Shown piece after piece: positions 10,638 through 12,773 of a stretch of 38,446 nt of DNA. The notes under the pieces are model-generated. The model was not told the origin of the DNA, ran no database searches, and worked only from the letters and a program-made list of their open reading frames with translations. The stretch is from positions 1 through 38,446 of the forward strand of contig CANCVE010000034.1 of assembly GCA_947381435.1 (NCBI GenBank), given 5' to 3'. The stretch is from Chitinophagaceae bacterium (GTDB lineage: Bacteria; Bacteroidota; Bacteroidia; Chitinophagales; Chitinophagaceae). The translations under genes were made by a program, and so were the position numbers. Position 1 is the first letter of the stretch; every line of letters begins with the position of its first letter.

Positions 10638-11495
10638 CTAAACCTGCCCATTCCTATACACACCAAAAACCTTGGTCTGTTCTGTGCATTTATCAATTTC
10701 TTTTAGCACATTATTAAACTGTTTCAATGTTGTAAATTCAAGGTCGGCATGAAAACTATATTTAAAGTTAGTTCCAGCTATTGGCATGCTCTGCAGTTTA
10801 CTTAAGTTTATGTCCTCTTGTGCAATCAGGGTAAGTACTTTAGCGAGGCTTCCTTTTGTATGATCGGTAATAAAATTAATAGATGCTTTGTTGGCATCCA
10901 CTACTGGTTCTGCTTCCGCAATACGTTCTAAAATTAAAAACCTAGTGTAGTTGCTTTTCTGTGTATGAATATTTTCTGCTATTATCTCTAGTCCATACAT
11001 CTCTGCTGCTAGCTCACTTGCCACAGCTGCAATGTGTTTACTTTTTCGCTGAAAAACATGCTTAGCACTCAGTGCAGTATCCTCTGTTTCTACAAGTTTC
11101 CAATGTCTCTGTCCCAAATATTCCATACACTGCTGAATGGCCATGTGGTGAGAATGTACTTCGTTTACTTCTTCTAGTTTTACACCAGGATTTACCATTA
11201 AGTGTTGTGCTATGGGTAAATATATTTCTCCAGTTATTTTAAGTGTCTTGTTGTTTTGTAATAATGTATAATTGGGAAGTATGCTTCCTGCAATTGAATT
11301 TTCTATTGCCATTACGCCGCCGTTACTCAGTTTCTTTTCCTCTGCTATCTTTATTACATCCCTAAAAGTAGCACATGGAATTACAGTTACTTCATTACCA
11401 AAATATTTTTCAGCCGCCATTTGGTGAAAACTACCTTCATACCCTTGTATTGATACCAACTTCTTTTCCTTGTTTTTTACGTTTGTTTCGTTCAT
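10638..11495 (-). CDS. pheA: Prephenate dehydratase with C-terminal ACT domain
   Basis: This enzyme converts prephenate to phenylpyruvate, the committed step of phenylalanine synthesis. The 285-residue protein has the dehydratase domain first (VSIQGYEGSFHQMAAEKYFG, AIENSIAGSILPNY, and NYTRFLIL with the essential TRF), then an ACT domain (GSLAKVLTLIAQEDINLSKLQSMP). The usual Phe-binding ESRP signature reads LQSMP here, so allosteric feedback may differ. There is no chorismate mutase domain. I start at the ATG at 11495. A TTG extension to 11531 would begin inside the T tract of an intrinsic terminator, so it is unlikely. Transcription appears to be controlled by the upstream leader peptide attenuator. 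Confidence 0.94.
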   Translation of the reverse strand: MNETNVKNKEKKLVSIQGYEGSFHQMAAEKYFGNEVTVIPCATFRDVIKIAEEKKLSNGGVMAIENSIAGSILPNYTLLQNNKTLKITGEIYLPIAQHLMVNPGVKLEEVNEVHSHHMAIQQCMEYLGQRHWKLVETEDTALSAKHVFQRKSKHIAAVASELAAEMYGLEIIAENIHTQKSNYTRFLILERIAEAEPVVDANKASINFITDHTKGSLAKVLTLIAQEDINLSKLQSMPIAGTNFKYSFHADLEFTTLKQFNNVLKEIDKCTEQTKVFGVYRNGQV

Positions 11496-11521
11496 AACCG
11501 TTTTTGAAAAATTAGATTCAT
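11492..11521 (-). CDS. Nine-residue upstream ORF overlapping the pheA start (ATGA)
   Basis: An ATG at 11521 opens MNLIFQKRL and ends with a TGA that shares an ATGA overlap with the pheA start codon. It lies directly after the attenuator terminator, so only readthrough transcripts carry it. It could couple translation into pheA, or be chance in so short a stretch. Confidence 0.25.
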   Translation of the reverse strand: MNLIFQKRL

Positions 11522-11529
11522 TGATGGAC

Positions 11530-11560
11530 AAAAAAAATCCTAACCTATCAGGTCAGGATT
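11530..11560 (-). terminator. Intrinsic terminator of the pheA attenuator
   Basis: On the minus strand, positions 11560-11550 pair with 11546-11536 in an uninterrupted 11-bp stem (one G-U pair) with a 3-nt loop, directly followed by eight T residues (11537-11530). This is a textbook Rho-independent terminator. It lies upstream of pheA, not after a normal gene, which marks it as regulatory. The 5' arm also takes part in the competing antiterminator. Confidence 0.9.
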
Positions 11561-11669
11561 GTATATCGTTGATTATTTAACCAAATTATGCTCTTGCAAA
11601 TACAACCCTGCTACTTGTTTTAAAGTAGAAATAAAAGAAAAAATAAAATCGTGCAAAGGGTATTTGTAT
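11555..11669 (-). promoter_or_regulatory. Attenuator switch: segments 1, 2 and 3 upstream of pheA
   Basis: Three minus-strand segments compete. Segment 1 (11669-11657, ATACAAATACCCT) can pair with segment 2 (11609-11600, AGGGTTGTAT) apart from a 3-nt bulge. Segment 2 can also pair along all 10 positions with segment 3 (11564-11555, ATACAATCCT; one G-U), which overlaps the 5' arm of the terminator stem. Segment 1 lies just before the aromatic codons of the leader peptide. A ribosome stalled there would mask segment 1, free segment 2 and form the antiterminator. A ribosome reaching the leader stop would mask segment 2 and allow termination. The pairings are read from sequence; the dynamics are inferred from classical attenuators. 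Confidence 0.8.
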
Positions 11670-11675
11670 TCTCAT
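11586..11675 (-). CDS. pheL: Phe/Tyr-rich leader peptide of the pheA attenuator
   Basis: A 29-codon ORF, MRIQIPFARFYFFFYFYFK and then ten more residues to TAA. Codons 10-18 are nine consecutive aromatic codons (six Phe, three Tyr), with another Phe at codon 7. This is the hallmark of a leader peptide that senses charged tRNA, comparable in role to enterobacterial pheL but unrelated in sequence. Both Phe (TTT/TTC) and Tyr (TAT/TAC) codons are used. The start lies about 8 nt after a perfect promoter, so the mRNA is leaderless or nearly so. The Tyr content fits control of a step shared with tyrosine, perhaps the aminotransferase. Confidence 0.85.
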   Translation of the reverse strand: MRIQIPFARFYFFFYFYFKTSSRVVFARA

Positions 11676-11682
11676 CAGGCTT

Positions 11683-11713
11683 CAAATATAGTGATAGGCA
11701 ACTAGGTAACAAA
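11683..11713 (-). promoter_or_regulatory. Bacteroidota-type promoter of the pheL-pheA unit
   Basis: The minus strand has TTTG at 11713-11710, exactly 19 bases, then TATATTTG at 11690-11683. This matches the published Bacteroidota vegetative consensus (TTTG/TTG, about 19 nt, TAnnTTTG) at every fixed position. It is the best promoter in the window and places the start of transcription within a few bases of the leader ATG at 11675. Confidence 0.8.
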
Positions 11714-11818
11714 TTTTAATCTATTTTCAACATATTCAATTATACATTTCAAAATTGAAAACTGTAAATGTTAATAATCAAATTCAATTTTATTTCTACA
11801 CTCACATATAGTTTATGA

Positions 11819-12374: not shown

Positions 12375-12500
12375 ATTTAATGAAGAATTTTGATTAAGAT
12401 TTTCAATTTTTCCTCCTGTATAACCAATACTTTCTTCAACTTAATCATCTTTCATGTTAACTAACTACCCTTTCCTGCTCTAAAAAGCCCCTTTCTTCCT

Positions 12501-12773
12501 CAAAGAATACCCTTATTAAGGCAAACACGAGGGTTTGATCTCCAAACACTACGGAATGAGACGCAAAGACATCGGTTTGCTAATCAAACACTACGGTTTG
12601 GAGTCAAAAGACATCAGTTTTAAAGGCAAAGACATGTGTTTGTAGTCTAAAGACACGTCTTTGAGGAGCAAAGACTACTCTTTCACCTCCAAACCGTAGT
12701 CTTTGCGCCTCATTCCGTAGTGTTTGCGTAAAAGAGCGTATTCTTTGCCTTCCAAACCGATATGTTTCTCTCC
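12501..12773. repeat. Tandem array of thirteen degenerate 21-bp units (array 2)
   Basis: Thirteen units keep a strict 21-bp phase while varying in sequence. The theme is CAAA, eight bases, TTTG, five bases (for example CAAAGACATCGGTTTG), so most units are dyads of 4-6 bp. Units sometimes appear in opposite orientation: 12543-12570 is the reverse complement of 12699-12726 at 27 of 28 positions. The array lies in the 743-bp gap between the usp and CorC-type genes. That gap otherwise holds the usp terminator, about 125 bp in which I see nothing, and a doubtful small ORF. Confidence 0.92.

Follow-up and report, generated by a model that had tools for sequence, protein, structure and literature searches.

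A probable ribosome-mediated Phe/Tyr attenuator upstream of pheA in Chitinophagaceae, with a leader mRNA predicted to be nearly leaderless

How is transcription into pheA, the gene for prephenate dehydratase, controlled in a member of the Chitinophagaceae, and how far is this control shared by its relatives? In enterobacteria, pheA is preceded by the pheL system, in which a leader peptide rich in Phe is combined with alternative hairpins. In the window analysed here, meaning the whole stretch of 38,446 nucleotides, pheA lies on the minus strand behind a short open reading frame with a run of aromatic codons and an intrinsic terminator. Judging from these parts and their conservation, the region would very probably be a classical ribosome-mediated transcription attenuator, acting on pheA and the genes behind it through charged tRNA-Phe and tRNA-Tyr. 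Unlike enterobacterial pheL, this leader has a mixed Phe/Tyr run, a promoter of the TAnnTTTG type and, as predicted, nearly no 5' UTR.

The genes that such an attenuator would serve are all encoded on the minus strand. The start of pheA (11495-10638; PF00800, E 1.8e-57) was placed at the ATG at 11495; the alternative longer TTG start at 11531 would fall in the T run of the terminator. It is followed by two proteins of no known family, X (10580-9417, 387 aa) and Y (9389-8211, 392 aa), which are related to each other (24.6% identical, E 4e-24) and gave no match in Pfam, NCBIfam, PADLOC or PHROGs; of nine relatives surveyed, four (L002, L004, L005 and L007) also have one or two homologues behind pheA. 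A class I/II aminotransferase (8111-6915; PF00155, E 2.9e-60) is likely the last gene of the operon, which is defined here by gene order and strand. In this genome tyrA is located on another contig, and in two relatives checked (L015 and L004) it lies inside the pheA operon, the order in L015 being pheA, aminotransferase, tyrA, DEAD helicase, DAHP synthase/chorismate mutase and aroB. Tyr codons in the leader would fit an operon serving both amino acids. Elsewhere in the window, imperfect 21-bp repeats occupy positions 12466-12655, between a universal-stress-protein gene and a CNNM/CorC-type gene.

The leader itself, MRIQIPFARFYFFFYFYFKTSSRVVFARA, comprises 29 codons (11675-11586, minus strand, with the stop codon at 11588-11586) and was defined by the sequence and by similar leaders in relatives. 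Its codons 10-18 (11648-11622) read FYFFFYFYF, that is, nine consecutive aromatic codons, as the initial annotation of this region had described, six for Phe and three for Tyr. A search of the assembly (98% complete, 231 contigs) for uninterrupted runs of eight Phe/Tyr codons found two places, the pheA leader and contig C216. The latter was rejected as a chance match, lying just beside tRNA genes and having no in-frame ATG.

The conservation of the aromatic codons, a check set in advance, was followed in a family sample of 147 genomes, 103 of which had a PheA match and all of these yielded loci. The addition of 21 loci from a named collection (15 of them from Chitinophagaceae) gave 124 loci, and the removal of identical upstream regions left 115 for the family, or 114 for the shuffle test, L016 being too short at a contig edge. 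A nine-codon window with at least seven aromatic codons was present within the 300 nt before pheA in 103 of the 114 upstream regions, against 31/2280 dinucleotide shuffles and 2/114 reverse strands. The mixture of Phe and Tyr codons, which had been taken as unusual in comparison with enterobacterial pheL, is no oddity of this genome and is common among the relatives read. Leader and terminator were both found in 108/115 upstream regions, and the remaining seven were left out of the pairing test: L003, L016, L100, L122 and L124, with no usable leader, and L005 and L006, where the aromatic run is weaker (5/9 codons), yet the terminator and segment 2 (see below) are kept. L003 belongs to a close relative (PheA 87% identical) and has no leader peptide before pheA, which also holds for L100, L122 and L124; by eye, the upstream region of L003 contains just a T-rich remnant, possibly pointing to a recent decay of pheA control.

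Beyond the family, 35 of 62 genomes of the order and class with a PheA match were chosen, and the best 30 became loci. At least seven aromatic codons out of nine were found in 26/30 of these (11/600 shuffles), and at least six in 28/30 (63/600 shuffles), L178 and L183 having no aromatic run upstream of pheA. In L155 the run is present with no matched terminator near it; the script chose the first aromatic open reading frame and may have misassigned the leader. By eye, a second aromatic-rich frame, FFTYGYYFFY, lies in that locus between the first one and pheA. The phylum sample consisted of the 30 best-scoring loci rather than a random draw, and among these, 29 from other classes and one from the same class (L151), none had the leader upstream of pheA.

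Downstream of the aromatic run, the RNA could adopt mutually exclusive pairings. Between segment 2 (11610-11600) and segment 3 (11564-11554), 11 positions can pair, one of them as G-U; this is one position more than first proposed. Segment 3 in turn shares positions with the 5' arm of the terminator (3:4, 11560-11530). The latter is formed by the arms 11560-11550 and 11546-11536 and a T run at 11537-11530; since the stem takes up the first two T, the 11-bp stem with eight T of the initial annotation is better described as either 11 bp with six T or 9 bp with eight T. The 2:3 and 3:4 pairings share positions 11560-11554 and, as complementarity, exclude each other. Segment 1 does pair with segment 2, as had been suggested, by 7+3 bp around a 2-nt bulge, and is better placed at 11666-11657 than at 11669-11657.

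When segments were compared with their shuffled versions (p<=0.05), the 2:3 pairing stood out in 106/108 family loci and in 25/28 order/class loci, whereas 1:2 did so in 70/108 and 5/28, respectively; the 1:2 pairing appears thus to be supported within the family and not beyond it. In an alignment covering 69 of 109 prepared family leaders (40 were left out), the terminator covaries, with 90.1% of cells paired and both sides changed in 43 cells, compared to 13.8 in shuffles. For 2:3, 76.4% of cells are paired, compared to 32-53% when the segments are slid against each other, and the covariation score is 0.115, compared to 0.027-0.078. However, letters shuffled among sequences still give 75.2% pairing, and the 12 doubly changed cells compare with 7-12 in the slid versions, so most of the support for 2:3 comes from conservation. 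Among order/class species, the cores of segment 2 and the terminator vary, as judged by eye, with their complementarity kept. The 1:2 pairing reaches 44.1% of cells on the alignment and 59.9% when slid by one, the subfamilies being out of register.

Within the family, two types of leader can be distinguished, ANT with VFA and KAY with GMLLL, and their association was tabulated for segment 1 by segment 2 (23/2/0/18; Fisher 3e-10; 43/108 loci classified) and for segment 2 by the extension of segment 3 (23/1/0/29; Fisher 4e-14; 53/108 loci classified), with types chosen after the sequences were seen. These p-values are overstated, since on a PheA tree of 107 rows the segment types changed only four to five times, once on supported branches. 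Covariation of 1:2 is only partly borne out: many family loci beat their shuffles, but the pairing does better on the alignment when slid by one, has few independent changes on the tree and does not appear in the order and class. Overall, the view of the region as a complete leader-peptide attenuator for pheA, with pairings kept in relatives, is supported by the conserved leader, the 2:3 pairing and the covarying terminator, and partly so for 1:2.

The same segment 2 bears on another way of reading the leader, in which the nascent peptide would arrest the ribosome by TnaC-like sensing, its C-terminus SSRVVFAKA acting as a peptide and the codons not being counted. This C-terminus is indeed strongly conserved in the near group, but the stretch encoding it is segment 2, whose pairing accounts for the conservation; moreover, other leaders of the family end in PGMLLL, RECFC or otherwise, or stop soon after the run, whereas the aromatic run stays. 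Peptide arrest appears, on these grounds, highly improbable.

Transcription of the attenuator would start very close to the leader. On the minus strand, a -33 box TTTG (11713-11710) and a -7 box TATATTTG (11690-11683; consensus TAnnTTTG) are separated by 19 nt, and 7 nt follow before the leader ATG at 11675; this promoter, already pointed out in the initial annotation, is read directly at 11713-11683. A TAnnTTTG box lies 4-9 nt upstream of an in-frame leader ATG in 80/108 family loci, at 7 nt in 40 of them, the script taking the nearest box over all in-frame ATGs and thereby favouring short distances. A TTTG with a spacer of 18-21 nt accompanies it in 55 of the 94 family loci having the -7 box. 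In the order and class, 3/28 loci have the box in the same position. As a control, it precedes the first ATG by 4-9 nt in 6/190 open reading frames of at least 150 aa (22 sequences), scored from a first ATG that may differ from the true start. In Flavobacterium psychrophilum, the -7 box spans -12 to -5 according to the available text of PMC9723704, and this offset places the predicted transcription start at 11678. Because of this box position, the 5' UTR of the pheA leader mRNA would measure 3 nt in this genome and 0-5 nt in the family loci that have the box there. The description of this mRNA as leaderless was hence nearly right, the predicted start preceding the ATG by 3 nt. Leaderless or very short 5' UTRs are described as rare, with 5.5% in F. 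psychrophilum (PMC9723704) and about 3.7% of 5' UTRs under 10 nt in the map of B. thetaiotaomicron (PMC7366714).

From these elements, we propose the following sequence of events. RNA polymerase would start about 3 nt upstream of the leader ATG, giving a nearly leaderless RNA end on which a ribosome would load. A shortage of Phe or Tyr would stall the ribosome in codons 10-18, where it would hold segment 1 back while segment 2 stays free; segment 2 would then pair with segment 3 as the latter emerges, segment 4 would remain unpaired, and transcription would continue into pheA. When both amino acids are plentiful, the ribosome would reach the stop codon at 11588-11586 and cover part of segment 2, upon which the 3:4 terminator would form and the transcript would end near 11530. 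Constrained folds, computed with assumed ribosome footprints, are compatible with both pairings. Before segment 4 is made, 2:3 has a probability near 1 whether a ribosome occupies the run or none is present, the equilibrium folds do not favour 1:2, and a ribosome at the stop codon allows a 7-bp remnant of 2:3 to form under the assumed footprints. In the full-length RNA, 3:4 has a probability near 1 if the ribosome is absent or sits at the stop codon, and is still preferred (0.88) if the ribosome is stalled in the run. The folds alone do not show a switch, which would have to be decided by the order of synthesis, and the modelling suggests that an untranslated leader may lack strong termination. 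On its own, the fold energy of the leader is not significant (z -1.39, with 20/200 shuffles equally good) and was discarded as a proof.

The pheA leader has counterparts in the same genome, where a leader with His codons precedes hisG and one with Trp codons precedes trpE, each followed, as judged by eye, by a terminator. The former, MNKKAILHHHYYVLPNG, lies on contig C56 (L188, of the set L185-L196) before a terminator-like hairpin, and all 12 hisG loci of this set, 11 of them from the same genus, have a short leader before the gene. The box lies 4 nt before the start in 9/12 loci, 5 nt in one and 7 nt in one, and none was found before the leader in L195, from another family. Two of the nine leaders with the 4-nt distance start with GTG, and one of these (L186) has a single His codon. 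With the 4-nt distance between -7 box and start codon seen in these nine, their leader mRNA is predicted to be strictly leaderless. The Trp-codon leader, MKQISQNINWWWHTNLVRGL, lies on contig C30 (L200, of the set L197-L210), also before a terminator-like hairpin, and in 13/14 trpE loci a CATATTTG or TATATTTG box lies 6-8 nt ahead of a WWW leader, the one remaining locus coming from another family; L202 shows a Trp_leader match below threshold (23.3 bits vs 41). No clear leader was seen in windows for Ile/Leu/Val codons in 8/13 ilvD loci viewed in the right orientation.

These leaders also speak to the idea of a plain early terminator whose product would be either a small RNA or a leader peptide working in trans, with little amino-acid control. 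A precedent exists in Sinorhizobium meliloti, where, in the available text of PMC7298713, a trpL RNA starting at its ATG and a trans-acting leader peptide, peTrpL, are described. However, this idea leaves unexplained both the complementarity of segment 2 to the terminator arm in nearly all family loci and the match between codons and genes (Phe/Tyr at pheA, His at hisG, Trp at trpE), and we give it very little credence. Attenuation by the translating ribosome remains our preferred reading.

An additional element may lie within the leader. In the proposed small hairpin (11628-11611; 11628-11623 with 11616-11611), which abuts segment 2, the last aromatic codons pair with the codons following them. 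It beats shuffles (p<=0.05) in 36/108 family loci and 10/27 order/class loci, and its arms, CTAC-GTAG or CTTC-GAAG, match in 32 + 28 loci and mismatch in 5 + 2, with 41/108 unclassified. TAC accounts for 83/113 Tyr codons in the final three aromatic positions vs 93/235 elsewhere. On the tree there are five supported independent pairs, of which about four agree in direction and none goes the other way (sign test about 0.125, not significant), and the hairpin is thus put forward as a suggestive proposal. In its most extended form, the reading would be that of a distinct Chitinophagaceae design, where phe, his and trp leader mRNAs start on the leader start codon or just a few nucleotides away from it and need no Shine-Dalgarno sequence, and where this second hairpin, stacked on the antiterminator, reads the exit of the ribosome from the control run. 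We hold this design only tentatively, and consider it rather unlikely as a whole.

Regarding known systems, neither the window nor any of eight related loci gave a match at the threshold of an Rfam model. The Phe_leader model (RF01859) has a full-length match at 11660-11530 on the minus strand (20.1 bits, E 0.57), which is far below the gathering score of 55 bits and no better than an unrelated match in the same list. A metabolite-binding riboswitch or a T-box with an incidental leader frame, which a structured leader before a biosynthetic gene might suggest, is scarcely credible in view of the conserved aromatic run and of the Rfam comparison, in which every family stays below its gathering score across the window and Phe_leader is among the sub-threshold matches. 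The closest description is from 2021, in F. psychrophilum, where the available text of PMC9723704 reports structured elements upstream of pheA and hisG, common to other Flavobacteriaceae and with no Rfam hits, together with strong indications of attenuation by leader peptides ahead of operons for amino acids. The Flavobacteriaceae pheA element shares gene, phylum and the lack of an Rfam hit with the present one; it belongs to another family, and the same text gives no leader peptide or segments for pheA. We infer that it is probably the same system. The Bacteroid-trp motif (RF01692) is a cis-regulatory RNA of Bacteroidetes, whose name suggests a trp leader and whose operon differs from pheA; the part of PMC2864571 at hand cites a 2004 survey of attenuation. 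A search with RF01692 gave nothing in the window at the gathering score, nothing within 11400-11800 at E<=5 and nothing in two trpE loci at E<=1. The 2004 survey, by Vitreschak et al., reportedly mentions Bacteroidetes. Leaders at or near the 5' end are also described in other phyla and operons, in the available portions of the sources, with the leader peptide of S. meliloti trpL encoded on an RNA starting at its ATG (PMC7298713) and the ilvBNC leader of Corynebacterium glutamicum discussed as leaderless (PMC11857589); for the pheA leader, the 5' UTR of 0-5 nt is predicted from promoter position. A literature search found no paper joining Chitinophaga with leader peptide and attenuation, and the available part of PMC4833913 contains nothing on pheA.

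Altogether, this kind of attenuator is known, and the pheA element has probably been glimpsed in a neighbouring group; what is added here is its anatomy, its spread, a leader mRNA predicted to be nearly leaderless and a possible extra hairpin. A complete Phe/Tyr attenuator is thereby placed in a family of Bacteroidota and in much of the sampled class, within a phylum that departs from E. coli in its promoters and translation starts. The more than 100 loci, alignable in principle, could serve directly to build a covariance model and to study leader-peptide control without Shine-Dalgarno initiation.
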